From IMG/VR virus record IMGVR_UViG_3300045141_000085, positions 1 to 26,457 of that record: a DNA stretch of 26,457 nucleotides, one strand, 5' to 3'. The position numbers and the translations under genes were made by a program. Of this stretch, positions 844 through 25,965 are shown piece after piece (positions within the stretch are counted from its first letter, which is position 1; the number at the start of each line of letters is the position of its first letter). Source of the DNA: a virus. Below the pieces are notes generated by a model that saw only the letters and a list, made by a program, of their open reading frames with translations, ran no database searches and was not told where the DNA came from.

Positions 844-951
844 CCCTTGTTCGCGGGGCGAACCGCACTCAGCATATGGACTAGGCCGGATACACTGTTC
901 GCGATGGCCCAGAAGCAGCGGCGACAGGAACGGGACCAATCCAGAGTTTTG

Positions 952-6909: not shown

Positions 6910-6917
6910 AGTCCCAC

Positions 6918-9900
6918 ATGCCCGACATCGCCCAAATGCAGCCGCAGGTGGCCGAGCCCGAATCCGACCGCCTCCGGAAGCAAGCTGCGCTGTCGCGGGA
7001 GATGGGCACGCCCGGCTTCGGCGACCTTGGCACGGCCGCGCTCGAACAGACCTTCACAGCCAGCGCGTTCAACCGCATCGGCGCCTCGCCCTTGCTCTGG
7101 GAGCCGGACCCGAAGTTCCAGTGGACCGACAAGCTGTTCAAAGAACTCTCTGACGGGATGGACCCCGCGGCGTGGCCGCAACTGGCCGACGCCGTGAGCT
7201 ACCCGCACGCGGCGTTCATCGCCAACATGGACAAGAACCGGCAGAAGTTCCGGGAGCAACTGGGGTCGGCGGGGGTCGGCGGCACGGCGGCGTCGATCGT
7301 GGCGAGCCTGGCTGACCCGGCGTTCGTGGCCGCGACGGTCGCTTCGGGTGGGCTGGCATCGGTGGGGAGCGCAGGCAAGATCGCGCAACTGACACGGGCC
7401 GGGTTACTAACAGGTGCCGCATTCGCTTCGATGGAGGAGTTCAAGCAGGCCGGCGACCCGACGATCCGTGACTCGGACGTGCTGCTGGCGGGAGCGATGG
7501 GATTGACCACAGCGGTCGCTGGCGGCCTCACAGAGGGCTTGCCGCGTTCGATCCGATTCCCGGTCGGGGGATTGGCCGCGGCGGCTCCTGGGACCGCCTA
7601 CGCCGCCCTGACGAGCGATGAGCAGAACCAGAGCCGGGACATCATGCTCAACTTCCTGCCCCAGTTCTTCCTGGGCGGGGCGATGACGGCCCTGCACCCG
7701 ACCGGCCGGTCGCTGGACGGGGTGGTGGACACGGCGGCCCGTGGCGCGATGAAGGACCAGGAGTTCGATCTGGTCAAGCAGCAGGCCGAGGCGCTGGGGA
7801 AGAAGCCCAGCGAGGTGCTGAGCGATCCGGGGAAGGCGTATTTCAACCAGCAACTTTCGGATTATCTCGATGGGGGTCTGGCCCGGCTGAGCAAGTCGCT
7901 GAACGCTGGGGAACCGAACCCCGAGCATTTCGACGTTGGTGCGGCCGATTGGGAATCTCACCCGCTTGTGGATGTCCAGCAGCGGGATCGGGCTTTGGAA
8001 CCGTATCGGATCGCCCTTGATCGGCTTTCCAAGATGGACCCGGAGAAGCGGCTGAACCGGGAGGAGGCCGACGCGGCGCTGGAAGGAACCGCGTGGAAGA
8101 CGGCCAATCAGGGCTTCCCCACTGTTGACGACATGAAGGGCTACGTCCGGCACATGATGAGCAAGATTCCCCTCACTCCAGAGGACGGCCAGCGGATTCT
8201 CGCTCAACAGGATTACGCCAGCCCCATCGTCCGCACCTCGCCGCCGCCCGAACCGCCGTCGATGGAGTTGCCCAAGCCACCGGTGCCCGAACCCAAGTCG
8301 GGCGAGGAACTGACGGCGATGGGCGCGGCAGCCGCCAACGACCCTGTGTTCAAAGCATGGGCCGACAAGGCCGAGAACGTCCGCAAGTTTCAGGACCTCG
8401 ACCTGTCAGGCACACCGCGAGAGAACGCTTCGGGCGCCCGCTTCAGCATGGCGGGAATGGCGAGCAGGTCCGAGTCGGATGACATCGCCTGGGCCGCGAA
8501 CATGATGGGCCGGGACGACCTGCCCAAGGGCAAGGGCGTGGCCGCGTGGAGCGCCCGCGAGCAGACGCGGGACCGGGTGAACGCCAAGAGCAACGAACTC
8601 CTGCACACCAACACCGATGCGTACAAGGCCTACGCGGCGGCCGAGCACGAGGCCGGGCGCACACCGCTCCCCTTCGACGAACTCCAGAACACGCTGGGAC
8701 GCCAGTACCGCCAGAATGCCATGCCCACCGGCAACGAGCACATGGACCGGATGCTGGCGACGGCGCGGAAGATCAGGAAGGACAACCTCGAATACGCCCA
8801 GCGTGCCGGGGTGCGGGGCGCGATCGAGACCCAGTGGGACCCGACGCTGCTCGACCGCCACACCGTCCGCGACAAACTCGACAACGCGATCAAGGCGTTC
8901 GGGATGGACCAGGTGGTCAAGTGGGCGCACGAAGATGTTGCGTCCCACCCCGAGAACGCCGACCTGAGCGAGAAGCAGCACCTCGCCCTCGCGCGTGATT
9001 GGTTGCTCGGTGCCGGTCGCCAGGGCGGCGTCATCGACGCGGCCGAGGCCAACCACATGCAGTTGAGCCTCCCGGACTTCATCGCGGGCCGGTTGCGGGA
9101 GATCGATTCGAGCCTAACTCCCGAAGAGATAGAAGGTCTCATCTGGAAGAAGGCCGAAGTCCCCGAGGGCGAGGGTACCGGCGCGGGCAACCCGCCCCGT
9201 TTCCGCCGGCAGACCCGCATGGAGACCTCGACGGTCCACGAGGCCGCCGACGGGCGCAAGTTCAGTTTCGATGACGTGATCGACCAGAACCTTGAGCGGA
9301 TCGTCCTGTCCAACTCCCAGCAGTTGAACGGGCTCGCGGGCATGGCCGAGGTATACCGGCAGTTCTCGACGCCCGAGCGCCCCATCGAATCCATGCCGCA
9401 GTTGAAGTTGCTCCTCGCCGAGCGGGCCGTGGCGCAGGGGATCAACTCCGATGCGATCAAGGCCGACCTCGACCGCATCGACATGATGGCCAAGATCATC
9501 CAGACCGGCGGACCGGGCGAGCAGAACACACCCTACAACCGGGCGCTGCGGACGCTGCGGAACCTCTCCTTCATCCGCCTGATCAACCCGAACACGTCGC
9601 TCCGCAACTCCTTCGAGATGGCGGGCGCGATGGCCGAGCACTCGCTGGGGACGATGCTCCGGGCGATGCCGGATATCGGCGACTTCTTCGAGGCGACCCG
9701 CGGCGGGAAGGCCGACAACCAGCTCGCCCGTGAACTCACCGAAGTCGGCATCGCGATGACCAACATGAACCGCCGGGTGATGCCCGGACCGGAGGAGGGG
9801 GATATCTATGCGCCGCCCAAGACCGTCAAGGACCGGCTCAACGACGCGATGCGTGCGACCGACAAGGGCCTCCGGATCGCGTCCAACTTCGTGTCCAAGG

Positions 9901-10874
9901 TCTCGTTCCTCGCCGCCGAGCACTCGATCCGCCAGAAGGTTGTGGGCAAGTTCATCGCCCAGAAATGGTTCGATGCCGCGCAGTCGGGCAGGCTCCCCAA
10001 TACGCAGCGCCTCGCCGCGATGGGCATGGACGAGCCCATGGCGCGGCGGATCATCGACCAGATCAACGGCGAGAACGGGGCCGCCTTCGAGAAGTCGGCG
10101 TTCGGCAAGCGGCTGACGGGCTTCAACTGGTCACAGTGGGAGGACGTGGAAGCGGCGGCCCACCTGCGCCAGGCGATCAGCAAGACGGCCTCGCGGCTGG
10201 CCTTCATCCCCGACCCGACCCAGATGGGCGTGTGGATGCAGAAGCCAACCGCCCGCGCCATGATCCAGTTCAAGCACTGGGCGCTGGGCTCCTACGAGAG
10301 CAAGACGCTTTTCAACCTGAAGATGAACGACAGCACGGCCTACGTCTCCTACGGGGCGCAGATGCTCGGGAAGGCGATCTCGTACACGCTGGCCACCTAC
10401 CTCTATTCGCTGGCCCGGCCCGACAAGGAGAAGTACCTGCGGGACCGGCTCTCGACCGGCACCATCGCCAAGGCCGCGTTCGCGCAGGCCGACTTCGCGT
10501 CCCTGATCCCGACGGCCGTGGACGCGATGATGGCCGCGCGTGGCAGATCGCCCTTCTTCGCCTTCGCTCGCACCACAGGTCTGGGGCAGGGCGGCGGTGG
10601 CGTGAATCCGTCCCGTGTCGAAGCAGCGACGGCGTTCCTCACTCAGAGCGCTCCGCTCGACACGCTGAGCAAGATGGTGGGGATCACCGGCGTCGGTCTG
10701 GAGAAGGTTTTCGGGTTCGCCGGGCACACGCTCGACTCTTCGTATCACTATGACCCGCGCTTCAACCAAGCCGATGCCCGCACTGTCGCGGGTGGGCTGC
10801 CGATGCAGAACTTCTGGGGCATCAAGCAGGCGATCCAGGCCGGGATCAACCAGTTCGCCAAGCCGAGGAAGTAA
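6918..10874 (+). CDS. Large internal virion protein (T7 gp16-like)
   Basis: At 1318 aa the protein has the same length as T7 gp16, the largest ejected core protein. Residues about 115-175 and 187-230 are Gly/Ala-rich and hydrophobic (AASIVASLADPAFVAATVAS, then AGAMGLTTAVAGGL), a pattern seen in phage internal virion proteins that may interact with membrane. A Pro-rich linker lies near residues 440-460 (SPPPEPPSMELPKPPVPEP). The C-terminal half is helical and contains NPNTSLRNSFEMAGAMAEHS and a hydrophobic SYTLATYLYSLARP segment. The N-terminal lytic transglycosylase signature of T7 gp16 (catalytic Glu in an ES-type motif) is not seen. The stop TAA overlaps the next ATG. Function is inferred from size, order and composition. 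Confidence 0.72.
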   Translation: MPDIAQMQPQVAEPESDRLRKQAALSREMGTPGFGDLGTAALEQTFTASAFNRIGASPLLWEPDPKFQWTDKLFKELSDGMDPAAWPQLADAVSYPHAAFIANMDKNRQKFREQLGSAGVGGTAASIVASLADPAFVAATVASGGLASVGSAGKIAQLTRAGLLTGAAFASMEEFKQAGDPTIRDSDVLLAGAMGLTTAVAGGLTEGLPRSIRFPVGGLAAAAPGTAYAALTSDEQNQSRDIMLNFLPQFFLGGAMTALHPTGRSLDGVVDTAARGAMKDQEFDLVKQQAEALGKKPSEVLSDPGKAYFNQQLSDYLDGGLARLSKSLNAGEPNPEHFDVGAADWESHPLVDVQQRDRALEPYRIALDRLSKMDPEKRLNREEADAALEGTAWKTANQGFPTVDDMKGYVRHMMSKIPLTPEDGQRILAQQDYASPIVRTSPPPEPPSMELPKPPVPEPKSGEELTAMGAAAANDPVFKAWADKAENVRKFQDLDLSGTPRENASGARFSMAGMASRSESDDIAWAANMMGRDDLPKGKGVAAWSAREQTRDRVNAKSNELLHTNTDAYKAYAAAEHEAGRTPLPFDELQNTLGRQYRQNAMPTGNEHMDRMLATARKIRKDNLEYAQRAGVRGAIETQWDPTLLDRHTVRDKLDNAIKAFGMDQVVKWAHEDVASHPENADLSEKQHLALARDWLLGAGRQGGVIDAAEANHMQLSLPDFIAGRLREIDSSLTPEEIEGLIWKKAEVPEGEGTGAGNPPRFRRQTRMETSTVHEAADGRKFSFDDVIDQNLERIVLSNSQQLNGLAGMAEVYRQFSTPERPIESMPQLKLLLAERAVAQGINSDAIKADLDRIDMMAKIIQTGGPGEQNTPYNRALRTLRNLSFIRLINPNTSLRNSFEMAGAMAEHSLGTMLRAMPDIGDFFEATRGGKADNQLARELTEVGIAMTNMNRRVMPGPEEGDIYAPPKTVKDRLNDAMRATDKGLRIASNFVSKVSFLAAEHSIRQKVVGKFIAQKWFDAAQSGRLPNTQRLAAMGMDEPMARRIIDQINGENGAAFEKSAFGKRLTGFNWSQWEDVEAAAHLRQAISKTASRLAFIPDPTQMGVWMQKPTARAMIQFKHWALGSYESKTLFNLKMNDSTAYVSYGAQMLGKAISYTLATYLYSLARPDKEKYLRDRLSTGTIAKAAFAQADFASLIPTAVDAMMAARGRSPFFAFARTTGLGQGGGGVNPSRVEAATAFLTQSAPLDTLSKMVGITGVGLEKVFGFAGHTLDSSYHYDPRFNQADARTVAGGLPMQNFWGIKQAIQAGINQFAKPRK

Positions 10875-15229: not shown

Positions 15230-15368
15230 GCCTTACAGCATATCCAAGAGTGGCCGTGGTTACAAGGTCAAAAAGGTTGGCAGCAAGAAGACCTACTCCA
15301 AAAAGGCCCTGAGCAAGAAGAAGGCGACGGCGCAGATGCTGGCGCTCTACTCCGCCGAGAAGCGATGA
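15228..15368 (+). CDS. Lys/Ser-rich small protein (46 aa)
   Basis: From ATG 15228 the product is a 46-aa very basic protein (YKVKKVGSKKTYSKKALSKK, then a helical KATAQMLALYSAEKR). The motif S-x-x-(S/P)-x-(S/T)-K-x-K-A-x-A-Q-x-x-A-L is familiar from small uncharacterised viral proteins. No good ribosome binding site is visible, which may reflect the HNH insertion right upstream. A TTG at 15180 would add 16 residues but would lie inside the HNH gene. The stop overlaps the next start (ATGA). Confidence 0.6.
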   Translation: MPYSISKSGRGYKVKKVGSKKTYSKKALSKKKATAQMLALYSAEKR

Positions 15369-15607
15369 AGAACACCGAGCGGCAAATGTCCGACCTCGCC
15401 GACGAGGTGATGCTGGGTTGGCTCCGGGAGGGTGTCCAGGTCGGCCACGACGAGGACAAGGAGCCCGTCTACCGCCCGATCAACTCCGCCGAGATGGCGT
15501 GCGTGATCCGTCGGCTGGCCAAGAGCGGCAAGAGCGTGAAGCCGTCGCTGGAAGAGGCGGCAAAACTGCGGCTGGCCGGGCTTGAGGAAGAATCGAAGAC
15601 CGCGTGA
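15365..15607 (+). CDS. Putative terminase small subunit
   Basis: This 80-aa acidic, helical protein lies immediately upstream of the large terminase and overlaps it by four bases (GTGA), the position of T7 gene 18 (89 aa). Residues 4-20 (TERQMSDLADEVMLGWLRE) and 43-55 (EMACVIRRLAKSG) form probable helices. The pattern LREG...P-x-(N/T)-x-AE-x-x-x-V-I-R-x-L-x-x-x-G resembles short small-terminase proteins of podoviruses. The identification depends mainly on gene order and size. No DNA-binding motif is certain. Confidence 0.6.
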   Translation: MKNTERQMSDLADEVMLGWLREGVQVGHDEDKEPVYRPINSAEMACVIRRLAKSGKSVKPSLEEAAKLRLAGLEEESKTA

Positions 15608-17427
15608 CCACCATCATCGACAAGGCCGACCACGAGCGGTTCGTCGAACGGATCAGGACCGACTTCCCGTTCTTCCTGCGCGCGCTCTGGCAGGACCGGC
15701 GGCTCGATAAGGTCGCCCCCCTTGGCCGCGTCGAGATGGACATGGCCCGGTGGTTCCAGAACGGGCCCCGGCTCCGGGGCGTGCTGGGGTTCCGCGGCGT
15801 GGGCAAAACGTACTTCGGTACCGCGGCGTTCTCGTGCTTCCGCCTGCGCCAGGACCCCAACCGCAAGATCCTGCTGCCGTCCAAGACGGCCCTCGCCATG
15901 CGGGAAGTCGTGGGCCTGTGCCGCGAGTGGATCGATCGGTGCTGGTTCCTTGAGGACATGGCGCCGCCGCCGCGCGAGGGCACCAGCACATCGTTCAACG
16001 TCGAGGGAGCCCGCGAGTCCAAGCAGCCGTCCATCAAGGCGATCGGCAACGAAGGGCAGTTGGAGGGCAACCGCGCCCACACCATCATCCCCGACGACGT
16101 GGAGACCAAGGACAACGTCAAGACCTTCGACTCCCGCGAAAAACTCGCGCACGTCATCAACGAGTACGTCAACATCCTCTACCCCGACGTGGTGGACAAA
16201 GACGACCCCGAGGTCATGTCGGCCAAGTTCCCCAGCGAAGTCATCATCGTCGGCACCGTGAAGCACGAGGACACGGTGTACCTCAAGATGGAAAAACGCG
16301 GGTACGTGTTCCGCACGTGGCCGCAGGTCTACCCCAGCAAGGCGGAGGTGAAGGGCGCGCTGGGCATGGCCCCCATGCTACTCAAGGACCTCGCCGACGG
16401 TCGCGCCGGCGTGGGCAACCCCACGGTCCCCAAGCGGTTCGACGAGAAGAAGTGCAAGCAGGACATGGAGTCGCTGCCCCGCACCGAGTGGCTGATGGAG
16501 CGCATGCTCCAGACCAACCTCGCGATCGCCAACCCGTACCGGCTCAAACTCGCCGACCTGATGGTCATGCACGTTGACCGAAACCAGGCGCCCATCCACC
16601 TGATCTACGGCCAGCAGGATTCCAACGGCACGACGGCGCTGGAGTCGATCCAGTGCCTCGGGTTCAACGAGGACCGCTTCTACCGCCCCGCCAGGATCGA
16701 CGGCCGGTACGCCCCGTACACGGGCACCAAGGCGTTCCTGGACACCTCTGGCAAGGGCGAGGACTCCAACGGGCTGGCGATCATCGGGCACCTGTCGGGT
16801 TTCTTCCACGTGAAGTGCTGCGTGGGTCTGGACGGCGGCTACGAGGAGCGGACCCTGGACGCGATCTGCGCGTTGCTGCTGCGGCACGGGGCGCGGGAGT
16901 TGTACGTCGAAGACAACTTCGGCGGCGGCATGTACGCCGAACTCCTGCGGCCGCGCCTGTCCCGCCAGTTCATCCGGCCCGGCGACACCACCTACCCCGA
17001 GGGCTGGGCCTGCTCGATCGTCGATGACGCCAAGATCACGCACGCGCACGGGATGAAGGAGGAGCGGATCGTCGCCACCCTTGAGATGGTCACGAGCAAC
17101 CACCGCATGGTCTGGGACATCGCGGTGGCCGAGAACACCAAGCTCCAGCACCAGTACACCCGCATCCGGCCCGAGAAGAACTGCCTGGGCAAGTCGCCCA
17201 ACGAACTGGACGCACTGGCCGGGTGCATGAAGGCGTGGGAGCACATGCTCGCGATGGACCCGGAGAAGGCCCTGAAGCGCGCCGACGAGTTCAGCGATGA
17301 GATAGAGATACAGCGGTTGCAGGACTTCCTGCGGGGCAAGGGGCGGATCAAGAAGCCGCGGCCGAACTGGATACGGCCTACTGCTGGACTGCCGGCACGC
17401 CCTCATAGATCTCGCCCAGTGACTTGA
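15604..17427 (+). CDS. Terminase large subunit (T7 gp19-like)
   Basis: The 607-aa packaging motor (586 aa in T7) has both expected domains. The ATPase domain shows Walker A GFRGVGKT at 62-69 and a Walker B-like TIIPDDVE at 160-167, with acidic D164, D165 and E167. The C-terminal RNase H-like nuclease shows FLDTSGKGEDS (D380), YVEDNFGGGMYAELL (E436, D437) and NELDALAGC (D536), with HGMKEERI at 482-489 matching the T7 RGMKEMRI block. It drives DNA into the prohead through the portal and cuts concatemers. Translation starts at GTG 15604, overlapping the small-terminase stop. Its 3' end overlaps the convergent gene at 17378-17665 by 50 nt. Confidence 0.95.
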   Translation: MTTIIDKADHERFVERIRTDFPFFLRALWQDRRLDKVAPLGRVEMDMARWFQNGPRLRGVLGFRGVGKTYFGTAAFSCFRLRQDPNRKILLPSKTALAMREVVGLCREWIDRCWFLEDMAPPPREGTSTSFNVEGARESKQPSIKAIGNEGQLEGNRAHTIIPDDVETKDNVKTFDSREKLAHVINEYVNILYPDVVDKDDPEVMSAKFPSEVIIVGTVKHEDTVYLKMEKRGYVFRTWPQVYPSKAEVKGALGMAPMLLKDLADGRAGVGNPTVPKRFDEKKCKQDMESLPRTEWLMERMLQTNLAIANPYRLKLADLMVMHVDRNQAPIHLIYGQQDSNGTTALESIQCLGFNEDRFYRPARIDGRYAPYTGTKAFLDTSGKGEDSNGLAIIGHLSGFFHVKCCVGLDGGYEERTLDAICALLLRHGARELYVEDNFGGGMYAELLRPRLSRQFIRPGDTTYPEGWACSIVDDAKITHAHGMKEERIVATLEMVTSNHRMVWDIAVAENTKLQHQYTRIRPEKNCLGKSPNELDALAGCMKAWEHMLAMDPEKALKRADEFSDEIEIQRLQDFLRGKGRIKKPRPNWIRPTAGLPARPHRSRPVT

Positions 17428-17665
17428 GCAGGTTGCACAGTTCGGTCGTGTGCATCCACCGGGCGTTGCTCGCGCCCTGTCGCTGGCCTTCCTTCTGCGG
17501 CTCCTGCGCCACCCCGTTGCCGCGCACGATCGCCAGCTTGGACGGCTTCTGGAGCGACAGCGCCCGCTCGACGGCGTGGAACTCCAGCGCCTTGCCCGAG
17601 TGGACGTTGATCAGGGTAAGCAGTTGGAACAGCCGGTCGGCCACCTCGGGCGTGATCTGGTTCAT
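17378..17665 (-). CDS. Hypothetical protein (95 aa) beyond the head-operon terminator
   Basis: ATG 17665 has a strong ribosome binding site (AAGGAG, 7-nt spacing). The 95-aa product is helical: a PEVADRLFQLLTLINVHSGK N-terminal part, a central LQKPSKLAIVRGNG, and a C-terminal TTELCNLLKSLGEIYEG. No family is recognised. The gene lies just after the intrinsic terminator that closes the capsid operon, so it depends on read-through or on its own promoter (none obvious). It overlaps the end of the large terminase on the other strand by 50 nt. The strong ribosome binding site and normal composition support a real gene. Confidence 0.6.
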   Translation of the reverse strand: MNQITPEVADRLFQLLTLINVHSGKALEFHAVERALSLQKPSKLAIVRGNGVAQEPQKEGQRQGASNARWMHTTELCNLLKSLGEIYEGVPAVQQ

Positions 17666-17692
17666 TCTTTGCTCCTTGGCCGGAGTGTACCC

Positions 17693-17727
17693 AAGAAAAA
17701 CTCCCCCGGGGACGATCCCGGAGGAGT
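17693..17727 (-). terminator. Rho-independent terminator of the head operon
   Basis: On the minus strand an 11-bp stem (ACTCCTCCGGG pairing with CCCGGGGGAGT, one mismatch, 6-nt loop ATCGTC) is followed by TTTTTCTT. It lies 28 bases downstream of the 206-aa gene that follows the capsid gene. The plus strand has no T-run after the stem, so the signal acts only for minus-strand transcripts. Confidence 0.85.
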
Positions 17728-17755
17728 GAGGAGAAAAGAACGAGACCCGTTCCTA

Positions 17756-18376
17756 TCAGACGATGTTGGCCGGGTAGTAGGCGTATCCGCCCATGTTGGC
17801 CCAGAGGAGCAGCCACCGTCCGGTGACGGTCAGGGTTGCGTCGGCGTCGATGTCGGTGCCCGTGCCGACGGCGAGGTTGAAGTAGACGGGCAGAGCAGTG
17901 GAAGACCCGTCAATCGGGACGAGGGCCGCGAGGTCGTGGTGCGTCACGGCGGCGGGCGCGACGTTGATGGTGGTCGAAGAGGTGAAGGTCGGAACGGTCT
18001 GACCGGTGCCAGCCAGGAAGTTGATCATGGTCGTGGCGAGCGTGGTCGCCGACGCCGCCGCCGATCCGAATCCGTACTGGACTGTCACGCCTGAGTTGAG
18101 CGTGGAAGCGATGGCGGAAGTCGTCGTGAAGATGAGGTAGGACGCACTGGACAGGACCTTGATCTTGCCCTTGGGCATCGTGTGGATGAGCAGGCTGGAA
18201 TAGGCCAGCGCGTCGGTGATGGACAGGGCCATCGAATCGAACTGGAACTCGGTGAGTACAAGGCCCGATCCGCCCGAGTAGTGCTGTATCGCCATCCCGG
18301 AGATGGCGACAGGCGTTCCCATCCGCCCGAGGCCGGGAGGGGTGCCGAGATTTGCGCCAAGAGTTGTTGCGGACAT
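17756..18376 (-). CDS. Capsid-adjacent virion protein (206 aa)
   Basis: The ATG at 18376 is preceded by AAAGGAG at 7-nt spacing. The 206-aa product is rich in Ala, Thr, Ser and Gly. It has a central predicted beta part (LVLTEFQFDSMALSITDAL, then GKIKVLSSASYLIFTTTS), a Gly-rich GVTVQYGFGSAAASA, and a C-terminal LTVTGRWLLLWANMGGYAYY. It has no catalytic motif. Its position as the first gene after the major capsid gene, 36 nt downstream, makes a head decoration or minor capsid function likely, though this is inferred from position. The operon terminator follows it. Confidence 0.6.
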   Translation of the reverse strand: MSATTLGANLGTPPGLGRMGTPVAISGMAIQHYSGGSGLVLTEFQFDSMALSITDALAYSSLLIHTMPKGKIKVLSSASYLIFTTTSAIASTLNSGVTVQYGFGSAAASATTLATTMINFLAGTGQTVPTFTSSTTINVAPAAVTHHDLAALVPIDGSSTALPVYFNLAVGTGTDIDADATLTVTGRWLLLWANMGGYAYYPANIV

Positions 18377-18391
18377 TTCTGGCTCCTTTCT

Positions 18392-18405
18392 GGGTCAATC
18401 GACCC
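18392..18405 (-). promoter_or_regulatory. Short hairpin between capsid gene and next gene
   Basis: GGGTC-AATC-GACCC forms a 5-bp stem with a 4-nt loop (7 bp if the flanking G-T and C-G pairs are counted). It lies between the capsid stop and the AAAGGAG of the next gene. No T-run follows, so it is not a terminator. It may be an RNA-processing or stability element, or chance. Confidence 0.3.
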
Positions 18406-18412
18406 GGCTTGA

Positions 18413-19465
18413 TCAGGTGATGACTTCGATGGAGCCGGCGCACTGCGGCGACATCTGGCCGATGCCGCACAGGATGAAGCTGGCCACGAGCCACGACAGC
18501 TTGTCCGGGTAGTACTGCACGAAGTTCTGGACCGTCTCCCAGGTGCCCATCGACACGGCGGCGTCGCCCTCCGGTCCCTGGCACAGCGCCAGCGCTACCG
18601 GCGATCCGGTCGCGGACTGCACGCTGAAGTCGGCCTGGTACTTGGTCGGCCCCGTGGTGATGTTCTGGTCCGGCATCGAGCCGTTGTTGGTGGTGGTGTT
18701 CACCCGCTCGTCGATGACCTTGAAGCCGTCGATGATGCGCACCTCGCGCCGCATGACGTTGTTGCCGTCGGTCGTCTCGATGTAGTCCCGGCTGAAGACC
18801 TGCCCGGAGTTGTCGTAGGACAGCACGTGGGCCATGTAGGGGGTGATCCACAGCCAGCGGTCGTCCGGCGGGATGTTGTCCTCGTCCATCAACTGCCCGA
18901 GGTTCCGCAGGTCGGCCCGGAAGTTGGCCGCACCGGTGGCGCTCTTGGGGTAGGCGGAGGCGAGCGAGCCGCCCGTGCGGGTCACGCGGTTGCCGCCGAA
19001 GTTGACGTTGAGGCCGTTCTTGGTCTTGGCCGCCGCCCGGGCCGCGAGGGCAGAGGTGATGAAGAGGCGTCGGTCGATCGTCATCGGGATCTTGCGGGCG
19101 TGGGTCTTGGCGATCCGCGGCAGGATCTCAAAGTGGTCCGTGCGCATGGCGTCGCGGGGCACCCAGTTGTGCTCGATCACGTACTTGTCGCGGGTGATGA
19201 CGTACTCATCGACCGCGTAGTTCTGGCCCAGGAGTTCGATCCCCGGCGTGTACTCCTGCTCGGGCTCGGGCATTTCGGCGAAGGCGAGGACCTGGTAGCT
19301 CTTGCCCATCGCCATCGTCTTGCGGTGGATGACGGGCACATCGGAGGTGAACAGCTTGGCGTGGGCGCGCCACGCTTCGGTGAACACCCCCGAGTAAATC
19401 TTCAGAGCGAGGTCAACGTCGTCGGTTCCGGTGCCGAGATATTGCACCGCATTGACGTTGGACAT
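18413..19465 (-). CDS. Major capsid protein (T7 gp10-like)
   Basis: At 350 aa it matches the 345 aa of T7 gp10A, the HK97-fold shell protein. Features consistent with a podovirus capsid include the N-terminal ALKIYSGVFTEAWRAHAKLF helix, the following GKSYQVLAFAEMPEPE (E-loop region), YVITRDKYVIEHNWVPRDA, the helix MTIDRRLFITSALAARAA, and the DDRWLWITPYMAHVL stretch, which equals the position where family members have a D-R-x-x-x-x-x-P motif. GGAG precedes the ATG at 7 nt. The scaffold lies upstream in the same operon, as in T7. A near-Cys-free composition fits a structural protein. Confidence 0.85.
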   Translation of the reverse strand: MSNVNAVQYLGTGTDDVDLALKIYSGVFTEAWRAHAKLFTSDVPVIHRKTMAMGKSYQVLAFAEMPEPEQEYTPGIELLGQNYAVDEYVITRDKYVIEHNWVPRDAMRTDHFEILPRIAKTHARKIPMTIDRRLFITSALAARAAAKTKNGLNVNFGGNRVTRTGGSLASAYPKSATGAANFRADLRNLGQLMDEDNIPPDDRWLWITPYMAHVLSYDNSGQVFSRDYIETTDGNNVMRREVRIIDGFKVIDERVNTTTNNGSMPDQNITTGPTKYQADFSVQSATGSPVALALCQGPEGDAAVSMGTWETVQNFVQYYPDKLSWLVASFILCGIGQMSPQCAGSIEVIT

Positions 19466-19587
19466 GGAATGTCTCCATGAAGGAAGGGTCGAAGGTGAAG
19501 AACACGCTTCGGCTTGTCCGCTTCACGGAGGTGCCCGGTCGGTGTCGCTCTCGCGCGGCCGGCTTCAAGAAGTCGTCTTCAGCCCGG

Positions 19588-19932
19588 TCAGCCGCCGCGA
19601 GTGTCCACGGATGGGTTCGCGGCGAGTGCCTGTTGAGGAAGCATAGCCGGGAACTCTGGTGGAACGAAGAATGTCCACTTCGCCCCATGATCTGGAAGTT
19701 TCACGGCCGCCCAGACAAGATAGGCCATGCGGTCCGCGTAATGCTGCTCGCCATGATCGATATCGCCAATAGGACACCCGTGCCTGTCAGCAAGTTCCCG
19801 GGCCAGTTTCCGGCGCGAAGACAACCGTTCTTCTGGGGTCGAGTTGGCGGCGGGTGCCCACACCCCTTTTTGCAGGTCTGGTTGGAGCAGCGTCATTCTG
19901 TTCAGTTGATCCGCGAGCCCACGTCGGTCCAT
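19588..19932 (-). CDS. Hypothetical protein, paralogue of the 92-aa head-operon protein
   Basis: The 114-aa product (102 aa if it starts at ATG 19896, which would avoid overlap with the preceding gene; neither start has a strong ribosome binding site) holds the motif GDIDHGEQHYADRMAYLVWA. This matches GADVHWGERYFHDKLAWFVY in the gene at 21427-21705: G-x-D-x-x-x-GE-x4-D-(K/R)-(L/M)-A-(W/Y)-x-V. An upstream basic helix (EERLSSRRKLARELADRHG) also corresponds between the two (LSEHKRLIRVKMDRAI). The function is not recognised. It lies between small structural genes and the capsid gene, with a 122-bp non-coding gap after it. Confidence 0.6.
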   Translation of the reverse strand: MDRRGLADQLNRMTLLQPDLQKGVWAPAANSTPEERLSSRRKLARELADRHGCPIGDIDHGEQHYADRMAYLVWAAVKLPDHGAKWTFFVPPEFPAMLPQQALAANPSVDTRGG

Positions 19933-20156
19933 GTGCTCGTGTCGGTGTTGCTCAGGCGCTGGATCACGTCGGACAGGAGCGTCGGGTTATCCAGCGCCCC
20001 GATGAGGTCCTGCAACAGTTCCTCTTTGCCGCCCGAGAAGTCGCCGCGAGGGGGACCGGCCAGCGTGGTCCCGTCGTAGACCGGCCAGCGGGTCAGCGAC
20101 CGACCGGCGAACGCCACGGTGTCAACGGTTGTCGTGCTGTGGACGGTCGAGGCCAT
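19902..20156 (-). CDS. Hypothetical protein (84 aa)
   Basis: ATG 20156 has a good ribosome binding site (AGGAG, 6-nt spacing). The 84-aa product has a Thr/Val-rich N-terminus (STVHSTTTVDTVAFAGRSLT), a GPPRGDFSGGKEELLQDLIG middle part and a C-terminal helix followed by TSTWTDVGSRIN. No family is recognised. It lies 9 nt after the AT-hook protein in the head operon and overlaps the next gene by 31 nt if that gene uses ATG 19932. Confidence 0.5.
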   Translation of the reverse strand: MASTVHSTTTVDTVAFAGRSLTRWPVYDGTTLAGPPRGDFSGGKEELLQDLIGALDNPTLLSDVIQRLSNTDTSTWTDVGSRIN

Positions 20157-20165
20157 GTCGGGCTC

Positions 20166-20585
20166 CTAGATCCCCGCGGGGATGTTCACTTTCTTGCCCA
20201 GCGACGGGCGGCCGCGCTTCTTGGGAGGTTCCTCGCCGAGGCTGTCCTCGACGGTCAGGTCGGCATCGGCCTCGCTGGACTTGGACGCGCGGGTGAGGTT
20301 GAACTTGCGGATGAGTTCGACCAGTTCGGGGTCTTCCAGCTGCGCCTTGGTCATCGGCTTGGGGCTGCGGACCGCGCCCTCGACGGCGTTGGTCACGGCG
20401 TCCATCTGGTCGGCCCCGCGGCGCGCACAAATAATCTGCCCGGTCTTGCGGCAGATGACCTCGCAGTAGAGCCCGCTCTTGTCCTCGCCCATGCCCTTCT
20501 GCGGGGTGCACTGCTTATGGACGAACCGGAAATCGGCGTCCATCTTCTCCAGCTTGGCCAGCACGTCTTCGGGGATTGTGATCAC
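20166..20585 (-). CDS. AT-hook-containing hypothetical protein
   Basis: GTG 20585 is preceded by AGGA at 8 nt and follows the scaffold stop by 9 nt. The 139-aa product has an N-terminal MITIPEDVLAKLEKMDADFR, a middle part with two Cys in LYCEVICRKTGQIICARRG (a possible beta-hairpin or metal site), an acidic SSEADADLTVEDSLGEE, and a C-terminal basic KKRGRPSLGKK. The RGRP core in that tail is the AT-hook minor-groove-binding motif. A DNA-binding protein between scaffold and capsid genes is unusual; it might be packaged or might act during assembly. The motif is plain, but its function here is inference. Confidence 0.6.
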   Translation of the reverse strand: MITIPEDVLAKLEKMDADFRFVHKQCTPQKGMGEDKSGLYCEVICRKTGQIICARRGADQMDAVTNAVEGAVRSPKPMTKAQLEDPELVELIRKFNLTRASKSSEADADLTVEDSLGEEPPKKRGRPSLGKKVNIPAGI

Positions 20586-20594
20586 GGGTTCATC

Positions 20595-21440
20595 CTATGC
20601 GAGTTTGGTGATGTCGGTCTTCCGCAGCAGTTCGATCGCGGCCGGGTCGCCCATCTCGGCCCGGCGGCGGACGGCGTTCCACTCCGCGAACGTCTTGGGC
20701 GCGCCGTTCAGGTTCGTGCTCACCCCGCCGGTCACGAGCGGCTGGGCGTTGCCGGCCCCCAGTTCCTTGGCGTGCTCGGCCTGGATCAGCCGCACCACCT
20801 CCGGGTACGCGCGGGGGTTGGCCTTGACCATCTCGCGGAACGTGTCCATGCGGGGCTTGGGGATATTCGCCTCCGCCCACAGGTTCAGGTTCTTCAGCGC
20901 TTCCTCGCCCCCGACGGCGCTCGCGGCCTCGGCGCGGATCGTCTGCTTGACCTGCACGTTCAGGGCCGCCGCGGCGTACTGGCCCCGGATCAGCGTGTCG
21001 GCGATCTTGCGCGGGTAGCCGACTTTCTTGAGCGCCGCGTACTGCTCGTCGGTCAGTTTCTCGCCCGCCTCCCACGACTTCACCAGGTCATCGGCCTTGA
21101 GCCCGGCCTTGGCCAGGATGCCGTCCACGTCCGGGTCGTCATCGACGGCGCCGATGGCCAACGGGTCATTGGCCGGGGCATTCGTGGTTTCGACGGGCTT
21201 TTCGACCGGCTTCGTCGCCGCCTCCACCTTGCGGGAACTGAGCACCTTGGCCCGCGCCAGGTACGCCTTCTCGAGGGCCTTGTCCTCTTTGAACACCGTG
21301 TCGATGGCGTCTTCGGAGAGGTCGTCGAGTTCCAACTTCTTCGACAGTTCGATGAACCCGGCCTTGAGCGCCGCCCGGTCGGTGTACTTCCCCGCCAGCT
21401 TCTCCTTCGGAGGGGGGTCCGTCACTTCAACTTCCGGCAT
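20595..21440 (-). CDS. Scaffolding protein (T7 gp9-like)
   Basis: The 281-aa product (307 aa in T7) starts at ATG 21440, chosen because it has AAGGAG and AAAGGA just upstream. A longer in-frame start would add 31 poorly characteristic residues. It is acidic and highly charged in its N-terminal half (KKLELDDLSEDAIDTVFKED), has a Pro/Thr/Glu-rich low-complexity linker (ATKPVEKPVETTNAPAND) and an acidic VDDDPDVDG. A helical C-terminal part with Arg/Lys clusters (EWNAVRRRAEMGDPAAIELL) could bind the capsid, as in other scaffolds. The order portal, scaffold, capsid supports the call. The upstream gene overlaps the start by 14 nt. Confidence 0.75.
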   Translation of the reverse strand: MPEVEVTDPPPKEKLAGKYTDRAALKAGFIELSKKLELDDLSEDAIDTVFKEDKALEKAYLARAKVLSSRKVEAATKPVEKPVETTNAPANDPLAIGAVDDDPDVDGILAKAGLKADDLVKSWEAGEKLTDEQYAALKKVGYPRKIADTLIRGQYAAAALNVQVKQTIRAEAASAVGGEEALKNLNLWAEANIPKPRMDTFREMVKANPRAYPEVVRLIQAEHAKELGAGNAQPLVTGGVSTNLNGAPKTFAEWNAVRRRAEMGDPAAIELLRKTDITKLA

Positions 21441-21705
21441 GTTCCTTTGCTCCTTGTAGCGCGACAGCATAGACGAACCAGGCCAGTTTGTCGTGAAAGT
21501 ACCGCTCGCCCCAGTGGACATCCGCTCCGGCAAGGTCTGGGTTGGCCTTGATCGCCCTGTCCATTTTCACGCGGATCAGTCTTTTGTGCTCGGACAGCAA
21601 TACGGCATCGCGATAATGATCACGAGCCACCCACCTGTACTCGATGTGATGCGGGCTATCCGTCAACACGCAGGCGACATCGTTTTCAAAAACGATTTCA
21701 GCCAT
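21427..21705 (-). CDS. Hypothetical small protein between portal and scaffold
   Basis: The ATG at 21705 has AGGAG upstream and overlaps the portal stop by 8 nt. The 92-aa product has an N-terminal beta-like part (VFENDVACVLTDSPHHIEYR), then a basic helix and the motif GADVHWGERYFHDKLAWFVY. The C-terminal half is related to the protein at 19588-19932. The gene is markedly less GC-rich than portal and scaffold, which suggests later acquisition (moron-like). An 18-nt AT-rich palindrome lies in codons 4-9. No family or catalytic site is recognised. Confidence 0.6.
   Translation of the reverse strand: MAEIVFENDVACVLTDSPHHIEYRWVARDHYRDAVLLSEHKRLIRVKMDRAIKANPDLAGADVHWGERYFHDKLAWFVYAVALQGAKEHAGS
21679..21696. 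repeat. AT-rich palindrome at the 5' end of the 92-aa gene
   Basis: ATCGTTTT-CA-AAAACGAT has 8-bp perfect arms around a 2-base centre, inside a GC-rich genome. It lies 9 nt inside the 92-aa gene and beside the portal stop. It could be a protein-binding site, an mRNA hairpin (7-bp stem, 4-nt loop) affecting translation, or incidental to the codons used. Confidence 0.5.
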
Positions 21706-23353
21706 TGGTTCCTACTCCTCGTGCGCCCACCTGGGCTTCGATGATGTTACCCGCCGTTTCCGCGGCCTGCTGACCCGCGGCCACCTGGGTCTGGGCGGCG
21801 ATCGCCCGCTGCTGCTCGGCCTGCTTCTGCTCCGGCGTCTTGATCATGCCCGGCTCGTACACCCCCGACAGCCGCGCCAGGACCTCCATCACAACGTCCA
21901 TGTTCAGGTCGTTGACCGTCCCTTCCAACCCCTTGATCACCTCGACGAACGTGACGAGTTTCTGCGCCCGCGCCTGCCGCGCCAGGGCCTCGATGCCCGA
22001 GAGCACCTGCACCTTCACGGCGTCCTTGGGCAGCGTCACGATCTTGTTCTGGCGCTGCATCTTGTACCGGGTGGACAGGAACAGGGGCAGTTGCAGCGTC
22101 CCGTACAGCGTCGCGTAGAAGCCGCCGGTCGAGCCCTGGAGTTCGGCCAGCGTCACCGACTGCACCTCGCCCAGGGTGGTGCGCTCGGAGTTCCGCACCG
22201 TCTCGGACCCGATCAGGAACACCTTGCCGATATCGCCCCGCAACCCTTCCTTCGATTGCTGCACGATCGAGAAATCGTTCAGCTTGTTGGACTGGTACAT
22301 CGCGAGGTACTTGGCCTGCCCGTTCTCCACGCGGTCGTGCAGGATGCTCCCCGAGGGCAGCTGCAGGTCATCGGCCTGGAGTTCGCTCGACGGGTCGATG
22401 ATCGGGTAGTGCTTGCTCGCGACGGCCGCGAAGTCCAGCGTCTTCTCGCACATCGCGTCGTAGCTGGACAGGTCGCCGCGGTTCATCTCGACGAGGCCGC
22501 GGCCGTAGTGCTCGGCGGGCGAGAGGTTGAACGGCGCCGTGAAGTGGCTCGACACCGACTCCTCGGTCGTGTTGAAGATGTGCCCGTTGAACTCCTGCTC
22601 GACCAGCCAGTTCTTCCCGCGCGGCTGGTACTCGGTCCGCGTGTACAGGGGCTTGTACCGCTCGTAGCTCTCGACCTCCTCGACCTCAGAGCGGGTGAGC
22701 CCGCACATATCCAGCTGCTCGTCGGTCAGTTCCAGCGGGTCCTTGCCCTCGATGGTGACGTGGTAGCACACGTCGCCCGAGTCCATGCGGCGGGTCACGT
22801 AGCGGTCGCGGCGGAACACCATCAGCCGCAGGCTGTCGTCCTGCCGCATGAGCGAATCGCCCGTCACCACCACCTGCGTGACGAACTGCCGCAGCGTCCC
22901 CTGGAGGCCCAGCATCCGGCCCCGCTGCTGCGTGTAGTTCGCGCTCGCGAGCGCCGCCATGATGTACTCGTCCATCAGGAACAGGCGCTGCGACCATCTC
23001 TCGATGTTCGCGGGGTCAACGCCCGGGTCGTACTGCACCTCGGCGGCCACCTCCTGCTGCACCCACAGGCGGTCGGCGGGGAACACCTCCACCATGGTCT
23101 TGCCCACGAAGTTGATGATGCCGCGGGCGCCGAGCGACTGGTAGTTGCTGGGCAGCTCGTAGTCCTGCGTCTGGTCGATCGGGGGCAGTTCGGCCGGGAG
23201 CGTCAGGCGGGCGCACTCGCGGGCCTCGGTCAGGATGTTCAGCCGGACGTTATGGTCCCGCTCGAAGCAGGCGCGGATCTCGCCGGGCCCGGGCTTGCCC
23301 GAGGGCTCGGTCGGGATCAGCAGCGCCGCCGAGTTGGTCGTGTAGGAACTCAA
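21698..23353 (-). CDS. Portal protein (T7 gp8-like head-tail connector)
   Basis: The 551-aa product (536 aa in T7) forms the dodecameric portal vertex through which DNA is packaged and ejected. The N-terminal region REC-ARLTLPAELPPIDQTQ, then ARGIINFVGKTMVEVFPADR, matches the family start (LTLPYLLP...GA..VNNLA.K.LLALFP type). Later come ADDLQLPSGSILHDRVENGQ and RDRYVTRRMDSG. The C-terminal part is a long helix rich in Gln/Ala (KQAEQQRAIAAQTQVAAGQQ), as usual for connectors. The start is TTG 23353, directly after the previous TAG, with AAGG at 5-nt spacing. No nearby ATG fits. Confidence 0.88.
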   Translation of the reverse strand: MSSYTTNSAALLIPTEPSGKPGPGEIRACFERDHNVRLNILTEARECARLTLPAELPPIDQTQDYELPSNYQSLGARGIINFVGKTMVEVFPADRLWVQQEVAAEVQYDPGVDPANIERWSQRLFLMDEYIMAALASANYTQQRGRMLGLQGTLRQFVTQVVVTGDSLMRQDDSLRLMVFRRDRYVTRRMDSGDVCYHVTIEGKDPLELTDEQLDMCGLTRSEVEEVESYERYKPLYTRTEYQPRGKNWLVEQEFNGHIFNTTEESVSSHFTAPFNLSPAEHYGRGLVEMNRGDLSSYDAMCEKTLDFAAVASKHYPIIDPSSELQADDLQLPSGSILHDRVENGQAKYLAMYQSNKLNDFSIVQQSKEGLRGDIGKVFLIGSETVRNSERTTLGEVQSVTLAELQGSTGGFYATLYGTLQLPLFLSTRYKMQRQNKIVTLPKDAVKVQVLSGIEALARQARAQKLVTFVEVIKGLEGTVNDLNMDVVMEVLARLSGVYEPGMIKTPEQKQAEQQRAIAAQTQVAAGQQAAETAGNIIEAQVGARGVGTNG

Positions 23354-23572
23354 CTAGGCCTTCGCCCCTCGCTTGGCTTCGTTCTCGCGCCGCCGCTTCT
23401 CGATCAGGAGTTCCTCGACCACCGAGCGCCGACCCAGTTCGTAGTTGAACGTCGCCAGTTCCTCGCTCAAGACCGGGGCCGTCATGCACGGGGCCGGGCA
23501 CTTGCGCGCGAGCAGTTCGGCCATCGAGACCAGCGTTTCCATCGGCACGTCATCGTAAGTCGCAAACGGCAT
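23354..23572 (-). CDS. Hypothetical protein (72 aa) upstream of portal
   Basis: ATG 23572 to TAG 23354-23356, immediately before the portal start. The 72-aa product is helical and charged: a DVPMETLVSMAELLARKCPA part with two Cys (C25, C29), then NYELGRRSVVEELLIEKRRR and a basic end. It overlaps the preceding gene by 23 nt. Small proteins of this size commonly precede podovirus portals but their role is unknown. A coiled-coil or portal-assembly helper role would be speculation. Confidence 0.55.
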   Translation of the reverse strand: MPFATYDDVPMETLVSMAELLARKCPAPCMTAPVLSEELATFNYELGRRSVVEELLIEKRRRENEAKRGAKA

Positions 23573-23972
23573 ACCGCCTCCTCAGCCAGCGGAACAGACC
23601 CGCCGGCGTCCTGATCCTCGCCGGGACAACGATCCCGGCCTGCGCCAGCATCTCGGCGGTCAATCCTACACAGTCATCGGCCCAGCGTGCGCCGGCTCCA
23701 AGCAGGTATTTCTTCCAGGCGCCCGCCGTCGGGTACTCGCCCATGCTCCGGATCGGGAACGCGACCGTCGGCCCCGACACCGCGATGCCGAGCAACCGGC
23801 CCGGATTGGCCCGCACGAACACCTCTTCCCGGATGATCGAGACCCGCTTCCAGTTCCGGTCCAGCACGTACCCGGCGCTGCACGGGCAGCAGTGCGTGAT
23901 CGCCGACAGCGACAGGCACCGCAGCGTCAGCGTCCGCCAGTGCAGTTTGGGCTTGACGAAGAACACGATCAC
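23550..23972 (-). CDS. Putative permuted papain-fold (NlpC/P60-like) protein
   Basis: The 140-aa product from GTG 23972 has an N-terminal hydrophobic segment and ends WADDCVGLTAEMLAQAGI, then RIRTPAGLFRWLRRR. The ending resembles a small phage family with (D/T)C-(V/G)-x-x-x-x-x-x-L-G-x-x-x-P-x-x-x-TP-x-x-L-(F/Y)-x-x-L, thought to be a circularly permuted papain-fold peptidase or amidase whose catalytic Cys lies near the C-terminus. The earlier His (ITHC) and a VSII-EE-like strand fit the expected order His then Cys, but the His assignment is uncertain. It is the first gene of the head operon, and the 17-bp gap to the divergent gene leaves no room for a normal leader. Treat the fold as a hypothesis. 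Confidence 0.5.
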   Translation of the reverse strand: MIVFFVKPKLHWRTLTLRCLSLSAITHCCPCSAGYVLDRNWKRVSIIREEVFVRANPGRLLGIAVSGPTVAFPIRSMGEYPTAGAWKKYLLGAGARWADDCVGLTAEMLAQAGIVVPARIRTPAGLFRWLRRRYAVCDLR

Positions 23973-23989: not shown

Positions 23990-24274
23990 ATGAGCACCAC
24001 CACCCTCGGCAAGGCCAGCCGCATCAGCCCCACGGAGGGATGGCAGGACCCGCCCGAGCCGGTCCAGCCAAGCCCGCGCGTCTACCAGAGAACGGGCAAG
24101 CCGGAAAAGCACTCGCCGATGAAGCGATCCGAACAGGATACAAAATACTGCCTGGACTGCGGGATTCCCCACTTCCACAAGGGGGCGTACTGCGGCGGGT
24201 GCTCGCCGAAGCACATCAAGAAACCGACAAGCCCGTGGAAGCATCTGCGCGAGGGGCTTGACAAGGACGAGTAG
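23990..24274 (+). CDS. Putative zinc-ribbon protein (94 aa)
   Basis: The 94-aa product has a disordered, Pro/Ser-rich N-terminal half (SPTEGWQDPPEPVQPSPR) and a C-terminal metal-binding-like motif CLDCGIPHFHKGAYCGGC (C-x2-C...C-x2-C with His residues between), followed by a basic tail (KHIKKPTSPWKHLREG). The motif suggests zinc binding and possibly DNA or protein binding. The ATG has no Shine-Dalgarno sequence, and the promoter candidate upstream would give a leaderless mRNA. It is the first gene of the accessory operon that ends in a methyltransferase. No family is recognised. Confidence 0.55.
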   Translation: MSTTTLGKASRISPTEGWQDPPEPVQPSPRVYQRTGKPEKHSPMKRSEQDTKYCLDCGIPHFHKGAYCGGCSPKHIKKPTSPWKHLREGLDKDE

Positions 24275-24286
24275 AGCCGGTACAAA
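24258..24286 (+). promoter_or_regulatory. Sigma70-like promoter upstream of the 105-aa gene
   Basis: A perfect TTGACA (24258-24263) is separated by 17 nt from TACAAA (24281-24286, 4/6 match to TATAAT). The -35 box lies in the last codons of the zinc-ribbon gene. The predicted transcript start (about 24292-24294) coincides with the left end of a 13-bp inverted repeat. Confidence 0.6.
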
Positions 24287-24294
24287 TCGATCGC

Positions 24295-24367
24295 TGATCC
24301 GTCCAGACCAGCACAACCCAGTCACGTATCGCACCCCCACATCTTGCCCTGATCTCTGGACGGATCA
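24295..24367 (+). repeat. Perfect 13-bp inverted repeat with 47-nt spacer
   Basis: TGATCCGTCCAGA (24295-24307) is the exact reverse complement of TCTGGACGGATCA (24355-24367). The 73-nt element starts right at the predicted transcription start and lies in the 133-nt non-coding gap before the 105-aa gene. In RNA it would form a closing helix of a structured 5' leader or small RNA. As DNA it could be a two-site operator. The internal 47 nt are C-rich with little own structure. No T-run follows, so it is not a simple terminator. Confidence 0.7.
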
Positions 24368-24407
24368 CCGGGGCGACGAAGTGGGTGGTGCTTTGCGCGG
24401 AGCGGTC

Positions 24408-24725
24408 ATGATCACTCTGGACCCGGCACGGCTCGAACGGATCTGGCATAAGTGCCCGGAGTTGAGGCCAGTCATAGACGGATCTCGGCTTGAGTACGGG
24501 TCGGTGCTTCATCTCGAATCGTGGTGCATTTCGTCCATAGGTCCAGAAAACTATGTCGGAGAATGCGGACCTGATCTTGCCGCCGCCCTGATCCGCGATC
24601 GGTGCGTGCTCTGGCTCATGGAGCGAGCCGACGACACCGGGAAATCGTTTCATTTCTGCCTGAAGCCAGACCCCACCAAAGCCCTCCTGCTCGCCGTCGA
24701 GGCCGCGCTGGGGATCACGGGATGA
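24408..24725 (+). CDS. Hypothetical protein (105 aa), start at internal ATG
   Basis: ATG 24408 is chosen because GGAG lies 5 nt before it and because the frame upstream of it is an uncharacteristic Arg/Pro-rich extension that overlaps the promoter and inverted repeat. The 105-aa product (MITLDPARLERIWHKCPELR, CGPDLAAALIRDRCVLWLME, then FHFCLKPDPTKALLLAVEAA) looks like a compact alpha/beta domain. No family is recognised. It overlaps the next gene by ATGA, and the operon continues through a Cys-rich small protein to a DNA methyltransferase. Confidence 0.6.
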   Translation: MITLDPARLERIWHKCPELRPVIDGSRLEYGSVLHLESWCISSIGPENYVGECGPDLAAALIRDRCVLWLMERADDTGKSFHFCLKPDPTKALLLAVEAALGITG

Positions 24726-24910
24726 CCGACCACATCCTCCACGACGACAGCGACGACGGCCGCAAGGTCAACCTGCTGGCCGCCATGCTGATCGACGGCG
24801 AGGTCTGCTGCTACTGTGGCAACGTGATCATCGGCTCGCCCTCCATCGCCTCCGCCGTCATCTGCAAACCCTGCTGGGAATACCAGACCGGAGAGAGGGG
24901 CGAGGAGTGA
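24722..24910 (+). CDS. Small zinc-ribbon-like protein (62 aa)
   Basis: ATG 24722 overlaps the preceding TGA (ATGA). The 62-aa product begins acidic (MTDHILHDDSDDGRKVNLLA) and contains a CCYCGN...ICKPC pattern (C-x2-C and C-x2-C separated by about 17 residues), a likely zinc ribbon. The next gene starts inside its stop (GTGA). It is coupled to a DNA methyltransferase, which may suggest a DNA-linked role, but no function is known. Confidence 0.55.
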   Translation: MTDHILHDDSDDGRKVNLLAAMLIDGEVCCYCGNVIIGSPSIASAVICKPCWEYQTGERGEE

Positions 24911-25965
24911 GCAGATACCGCCTCATCCACGGCGACGTTCGTGCGGTCCTGCCGACGCTGGAGGACGGCTCGGTCCATTGCTGCGTGACCAGCCCGCCGT
25001 ACTGGGGCCTGCGCGACTACGGGACGCCCGGTCAGATCGGCCTGGAAGCGACGCCCGATGAGTACGTGTCGGTGATGGTGGCGGTGTTCCGCGAGGTGCG
25101 GCGGGTTCTGCGGGACGATGGGACCGCGTGGGTGAATATGGGGGACGGGTACGCGGGCGGCGGTCATGGCGGCGGCGGTTCGTACGAGTCCGAACGCAAC
25201 TGTCGCAAGGGATCGGCCCGCGCCAACGGGGTCGTGCGTGAAGATTCGCCGCGTAATCGTGATGGTCTCGGCCGCGTGTCGGAGTGTAAGCCCAAAGACC
25301 TCATCGGCATGCCCTGGCTCCTCGCCTTCGCCCTCCGCGCCGACGACTGGTATCTCCGTTCTGACATCATCTGGCACAAGCCCAACCCGATGCCCGAGAG
25401 CGTCGCCGACCGGCCGACCAAAAGCCATGAATACATTTTCCTTCTCTCGAAGAGCGCGCGGTACTACTACGACGCGGAGGGGATCGCGGAACCCCTTGCG
25501 GAGTCAACAGAGAAAGACCGAATCGACGGCCACCTGTACCGCCGCGATGGACAGGTCGGAGGCGCGGACAAAGGCGGCGGTCGGCTGAGATCCCGCCTGA
25601 AGATGCCGCCCATTGGCGGGATCAAGCATGCAGAGAACGGGCACAATGGGACGCTCGTGGGCAATGAACCCGAATGGCCGGACGCTCGCAACAAGCGCAC
25701 GGTGTGGACCGTCGCAACCCAGCCGTTCCCCGAAGCCCACTTCGCCACCTTCCCCGAGAAGTTGATCGAGCCCTGCATCCTCGCGGGCTGCCCGGTCGGC
25801 GGGACGGTTTTGGACCCGTTCAACGGTGCGGCCACCACGGGAGTTGTGAGCCTGCGCCACGGGCGCAACTACATCGGCATCGACAACAACGCGGAGTACC
25901 TGGCGATGAGCGAGCGGAGGATGGAGAAGGTTGCCCCACTATTCACCGCGAGGGCCGGGGCATGA
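24907..25965 (+). CDS. Solitary DNA methyltransferase, beta class (N4-cytosine or N6-adenine)
   Basis: The 352-aa protein transfers a methyl group from S-adenosylmethionine to a DNA base. The catalytic motif IV TSPPYWGLRDYG is at 28-39. Then come the target-recognition and middle region (LIGMPWLLAFALRADDWYLR, SDIIWHKPNPMPESV, HEYIFLLSKSARYYYD), and the SAM-binding motif VLDPFNGAATTG is at 301-312 with NYIGIDNN at 321-328. The order IV then I marks the permuted beta class, and the SPPY form is typical of N4-cytosine enzymes, although some N6-adenine enzymes share it. The start is GTG 24907, overlapping the previous stop, with GAGGGG upstream. No restriction nuclease gene is near, so it probably protects phage DNA or modifies its expression. 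Confidence 0.92.
   Translation: MSRYRLIHGDVRAVLPTLEDGSVHCCVTSPPYWGLRDYGTPGQIGLEATPDEYVSVMVAVFREVRRVLRDDGTAWVNMGDGYAGGGHGGGGSYESERNCRKGSARANGVVREDSPRNRDGLGRVSECKPKDLIGMPWLLAFALRADDWYLRSDIIWHKPNPMPESVADRPTKSHEYIFLLSKSARYYYDAEGIAEPLAESTEKDRIDGHLYRRDGQVGGADKGGGRLRSRLKMPPIGGIKHAENGHNGTLVGNEPEWPDARNKRTVWTVATQPFPEAHFATFPEKLIEPCILAGCPVGGTVLDPFNGAATTGVVSLRHGRNYIGIDNNAEYLAMSERRMEKVAPLFTARAGA

Follow-up and report, generated by a model that had tools for sequence, protein, structure and literature searches.

The late gene order of T7 is among the more conserved gene orders of phages, and in T7 a terminator located just behind the capsid gene limits the expression of the genes that follow. LUZ100 carries a strong terminator immediately 3′ of its capsid gene, which limits downstream gene expression (PMC10134795). 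Mycobacterium phage jiawei (OR464703) and other Autographiviridae harbor the T7-type portal, scaffold, capsid, tubular, core and terminase genes in strict T7 order on one strand, together with a phage RNA polymerase gene. Opposed late genes occur in the T7-type Prochlorococcus phage P-SCSP1a (OM416763.1) and in the contigs G009, G014, G018, G024 and G025, in which the inversion is confined to the terminase gene and a few small genes. The P-SCSP1 paper nevertheless calls this architecture well-conserved T7-like (PMC9860041), despite the inverted terminase seen in OM416763.1. The Saffermanviridae Pf-WMP3 and Pf-WMP4 combine T7-type structural genes with two opposed blocks, early versus late; their terminase, portal, scaffold, capsid and tail genes all lie on one strand, and the terminase precedes the portal.

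We analyzed the entire IMG/VR record IMGVR_UViG_3300045141_000085, a linear contig of 26,457 bases that is hereafter referred to as the window. Autographiviridae are characterized by linear genomes of about 40 kb with direct terminal repeats. The 26.5-kb record is classed as 'linear', which means that end repeats were not found, and linear IMG/VR records are often fragments. The left end of the contig lies 204 bp upstream of gp11. No match to an RNA polymerase gene was obtained anywhere in the 26,457-nt window, and the contig is partial. When the window was compared with phage records by megablast, the methyltransferase gene gave the only match. PHROG matches and alignments identified the T7-type portal, scaffold, capsid, tubular, core and terminase proteins, and all of the late genes identified on the contig are open frames (Table 1).

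Unlike those of the Autographiviridae, these genes do not follow the 8-9-10-11-12...19 order on one strand; gp8-gp9-gp10 are flipped and located downstream of gp19. The first-pass annotation had assigned the portal, scaffold and capsid genes to the minus strand, behind the terminase and reading towards it, and the tail, core and terminase genes to the plus strand. PHROG matches to gp8, gp9 and gp10 agree with the former assignment, and PHROG profiles for gp11, gp12, gp14-like, gp16 and gp19 bear out the latter. The coordinates it gave for the head genes are also correct, but the block is larger than the three genes named, covering 17.70-23.97 kb and adding the PHROG 11997 gene, a terminator and two conserved genes. 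According to open frames and coding statistics, the minus-strand block spans from the terminator at 17.70 kb to the start codon at 23972, and neither edge cuts any conserved gene.

Table 1. Features of the window, with positions on the 26,457-nt record and the supporting evidence. Percentages are protein identities to the sequences compared.
Feature	Position	Strand	Evidence
58-aa gene	28..204	+	adjoins gp11, stop/start adjacent (TAAATG); direct reading
gp11-like tail tubular protein A	205..843	+	phrog_446, 1e-22; 30% to jiawei gp11
gp12-like tail tubular protein B	847..4059	+	phrog_457, 3e-85; 38% over 921 aa to G056
gp14-like internal virion protein	4052..4579	+	phrog_418, 7e-4; 32% to G054
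internal virion protein at gp15 position (putative)	4576..6909	+	without PHROG; 25% to G054 gene at the same place
gp16-like internal virion protein	6918..10874	+	phrog_342, 1e-74
candidate small terminase at gp18 position	15365..15607	+	30% over 60 aa to G050 gene preceding terminase
gp19-like large terminase	15604..17427	+	phrog_38, 2e-63; 39% to G054 and G050
95-aa gene, convergent with terminase, in the stretch holding the junction	17378..17665	-	coding score 0.52 per codon; GC3 0.92
intrinsic terminator closing the head unit	17700..17727	-	11-bp stem, then TTTTTC; position of the T7 post-gene-10 terminator
PHROG 11997 gene, post-capsid in relatives	17756..18376	-	phrog_11997, 2e-25; 51% to G056
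gp10-like major capsid protein	18413..19465	-	phrog_267, 2e-26; 61% over 347 aa to G056
small gene, scaffold-capsid interval	19902..20156	-	40% over 63 aa to G056
small gene, scaffold-capsid interval	20166..20585	-	33% to G054, 30% to G056
gp9-like scaffold protein	20595..21533	-	phrog_1052, 9e-18; 37% to G054, 32% to G056
gp8-like portal protein	21698..23353	-	phrog_449, 2e-76; 40% over 524 aa to G054, 35% to G056
72-aa gene preceding portal	23354..23572	-	42% to G056, 39% to G054
first head-unit gene	23550..23972	-	alignment with L169 and L085; 27% to G054
divergent plus operon (94 aa, 105 aa, 62 aa, DNA methyltransferase 24907-25965)	23990..25965	+	direct reading

Two genes of the plus-strand set, gp15 (4576-6909) and gp18 (15365-15607), are assigned from their positions, the homology to the neighboring genes of relatives being weak, and should be regarded as putative; the candidate gp18 also matches genes in other terminase loci. 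The terminase gene is full length. At the left end, the 58-aa gene differs from the core genes in GC3 (0.47 vs about 0.9), and it is coupled to gp11; the plus operon extends leftward beyond the end of the contig. Three further features were observed in this part of the window. The codon usage distance of gp15 and gp16 (4576-10874) is about 1.1, compared with 0.5-0.7 for the other genes of the window. A 563-aa protein (12761-14452, plus strand), whose second half consists of a repeat unit of ~21 aa at 63-base spacing with a motif like TTYAPVIAT, probably functions in the tail fibre or at the surface. The tail-fibre region is separated from the gp18 position by a minus-strand HNH endonuclease gene (14795-15229; PF13392, 3e-16), likely a homing endonuclease insertion.

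To place this arrangement, we compared the window with relatives at 30-61% protein identity, which were found by alignment-guided scans of viral contigs; single-protein scans revealed no near relatives of the portal or the terminase in IMG/VR, and a genome scan for relatives returned one distant match only. The closest contig holding the whole region is G056 (IMGVR_UViG_3300025310_000224), whose head genes, PHROG 11997 gene, terminator, gp11, gp12, gp14 and terminase are all homologous to those of the window. In contrast to the window, G056 carries all of them on one strand, with head before tail and ~5 kb of other genes between the terminator and gp11. The order of its head genes is nearly that of the window, except that the pair of small genes in the scaffold-capsid interval matches in swapped order, one of them weakly. 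G056 (L222) also harbors two gp11-like genes, at 8643-9251 and 10387-10995. The capsid and PHROG 11997 proteins of the window are 61% and 51% identical to those of G056, in comparison with 32-35% for portal, scaffold and terminase, and exchange of a capsid segment (17756-19465) is possible.

Three further relatives, L169/G044, L085/G001 and G052, have head, tail and terminase genes on one strand in T7 order, and in each of them the RNA polymerase gene directly precedes the first gene of the head unit. This gene, lying after RNA polymerase and ahead of the portal, is the counterpart of 23550..23972 in the window. L217, L219 and L220 contain the RNA polymerase gene and the head part of a G056-like layout, and in L217 the polymerase gene again immediately precedes the head unit. 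Because the first gene of the block follows RNA polymerase in relatives and the last follows the capsid gene, both edges of the block are module edges there. The portal (40%) and the terminase (39%) of the window are closest to those of G054 (IMGVR_UViG_3300049436_000085), which has the same small genes around the portal; it differs in that its head genes, a gp12 remnant and the terminase are co-directional and in the presence of an integrase and a helicase. At ~16.0-16.4 kb of G054, the series of portal, scaffold and one small gene is followed immediately by the C-terminal half of gp12, and the contig is devoid of the capsid gene, gp11 and the N-terminal half of gp12, owing to either deletion or misassembly. 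G052 (IMGVR_UViG_3300044695_003432) spans 85 kb and has T7-type portal genes at two places, 37.8-39.4 and 67.9-69.4 kb; it represents either a junction of two phages or a double genome of an unusual kind.

In the gene-order comparison that had been proposed, G056, L169, L085/G001 and G052 are one-stranded and in T7 order, and relative to them the head block of the window is inverted and relocated. The first-pass annotation regarded strictly one-stranded relatives as evidence against the arrangement; these relatives are indeed so, yet this makes the arrangement a singleton rather than refuting it. In a sample gathered via portal, capsid and terminase searches, which is not a census, gp10 and gp11 are on opposite strands in one of the 59 distinct T7-type sequences with both, namely the window, and each of the 82 sequences that carry both portal and capsid has them on one strand. 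The portal and the terminase are opposed in 6 of 28 contigs that carry both, and head and tail genes are kept together wherever both were seen. In G002, the large terminase is likewise opposite to all head and tail genes. The contrast with T7 that had been drawn from the opposed units holds, but such units are not unique, given the inverted terminase of P-SCSP1a and others. While late units in opposition are known from these phages, the separation of the capsid from the tail tubular genes is without precedent among the phages compared, and no strand split between head and tail genes in T7-like phages was found in the literature searched.

The stretch holding the junction is occupied by the 95-aa gene, for which the family search gave no match, and this gene and the terminase gene overlap tail to tail by 50 bp. 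The strongest site of the terminator scan (-22.1 kcal/mol, z -2.65) lies on the minus strand at 17727-17700, just past the capsid gene region, where T7 and LUZ100 also have a terminator. A hairpin followed by a T run is found at the equivalent place in G056, L169, L085 and G052, that is, in five of the five members inspected including the window. Since the terminator is conserved at the T7-type post-capsid position, the break appears to coincide with an existing transcription boundary.

The divergent plus operon on the other side of the block ends with a DNA methyltransferase gene (N6_N4_Mtase, 6e-47); the last 490 bases of the contig (25966-26457) contain no convincing gene and may be non-coding or a terminal region. 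The start codons of this operon and of the head unit are 17 bp apart, so that there is scant room for a promoter outside coding sequence if both start calls are right. A test for a promoter on the minus strand upstream of 23972 had been suggested, and none was found, the sigma-70 scan being at chance. Neither T7, SP6 or T3-like promoter cores nor repeated phage promoters were found in the window.

The proposal that late transcription uses at least two opposed units is soundly drawn from the 50-bp tail-to-tail overlap and from the head unit's own terminator, although the transcripts themselves are deduced from this layout. Most likely, the head genes would be transcribed leftward from a predicted promoter near 23.97 kb, ending at ~17.70 kb, while gp11 to terminase would be transcribed rightward from a predicted promoter to the left of the contig. 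A head unit with a promoter of its own could flip and yet stay expressed. On the plus strand, no terminator was found from the terminase to 19.85 kb, and rightward transcripts could therefore enter the capsid gene in antisense orientation unless another stop exists.

We consider it likely that a natural rearrangement inverted the whole head transcription unit, which is now located downstream of the large terminase gene and points at it. The moved unit would comprise the gene following RNA polymerase, the portal, scaffold and capsid genes, and the region through the terminator behind the PHROG 11997 gene. The first-pass annotation ascribed the whole change to one inversion plus a move. Relocation and inversion relative to the relatives are supported, and this route is a possible one, but an inversion of gp11-gp19 yields the same adjacency without a move. 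Viewed from the other strand, such an inversion beside an unmoved head unit would give the identical convergence of head and terminase genes, and the T7-type contigs and isolates with the terminase alone inverted demonstrate that late-region inversions happen. An origin of the real arrangement by in-place inversion from gp11 to the terminase, or by several overlapping inversions, is a possible but rather doubtful variant, which differs in the steps alone. An in-place inversion predicts RNA polymerase or co-directional genes upstream of the head unit and, to the left of gp11, minus-strand genes formerly flanking the terminase. Instead, the genes following the block on the right are on the plus strand and do not include RNA polymerase, and the gene that precedes gp11 and is coupled to it is also on the plus strand. 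For these reasons a moved head unit is mildly favored, fitting the flanking genes better than an in-place inversion on a contig that is short on both sides.

The arrangement rests on a single linear metagenome contig, and we hold with good confidence that it is real. A misassembly or amplification chimera, in which the true genome is one-stranded and the reversed head segment was fused to the terminase segment's end during amplification or assembly, appears unlikely. The arrangement is a singleton among relatives, the same junction occurs in no second contig, and the window is one linear contig. As the contig ends 204 bp left of gp11, near the site from which the block is missing, one internal false join would suffice, and a whole-genome amplification chimera could also invert a segment. 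The gap in G054, which removes the capsid gene, gp11 and half of gp12, indicates that contigs of this clade can be odd in exactly that region. However, the join leaves complete genes on both sides, coincides with a module edge known from the relatives and is spanned by a convergent open frame, whereas misjoins at random would interrupt genes more often. The two sides of the join are also concordant in codon usage and phylogenetic affinity.

Two specific forms of artefact were rejected. None of the 16-mers in the leftmost 250 bases has an exact copy elsewhere in the window, in either orientation, and thus the sequence shows no repeat by which an assembler could have been misled, contrary to a repeat-mediated artefact. 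An origin of the contig from two unrelated phages is unlikely, since the best matches of most late genes are in the same relatives and the codon usage of the head and terminase genes matches: their distance of 0.47 is the closest of the gene sets compared, with 0.55 between the head genes and gp11/gp12.

It is highly improbable that the window represents an ordinary member of an established group whose gene blocks are opposed, for instance Zobellviridae or Saffermanviridae. T7-type structural genes and a pair of opposed blocks do occur in those groups, but there replication genes oppose late genes or the terminase has moved: the portal, scaffold, capsid and tail tubular genes are together on one strand in Pf-WMP3 and Pf-WMP4 and form one plus-strand cluster in the Klyazma paper, while the terminase of the window is convergent with the head block rather than preceding the portal among co-directional structural genes as in Saffermanviridae, and its genes are split across strands rather than gathered with the terminase in one single-strand cluster as in Zobellviridae.

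Engineered rearrangements of T7 reduce fitness lastingly (PMC3737178). We favor, with some reservation, the interpretation that the window derives from a natural T7-type phage in which the head genes and the tail and packaging genes are divided into two convergent late units, split exactly at the post-capsid terminator, and in which the head unit is independent and movable. If this is true, a naturally flipped head unit would separate the constrained from the modular parts of the T7 gene order, and the phage would provide a natural test of how far convergent late transcription is tolerated.
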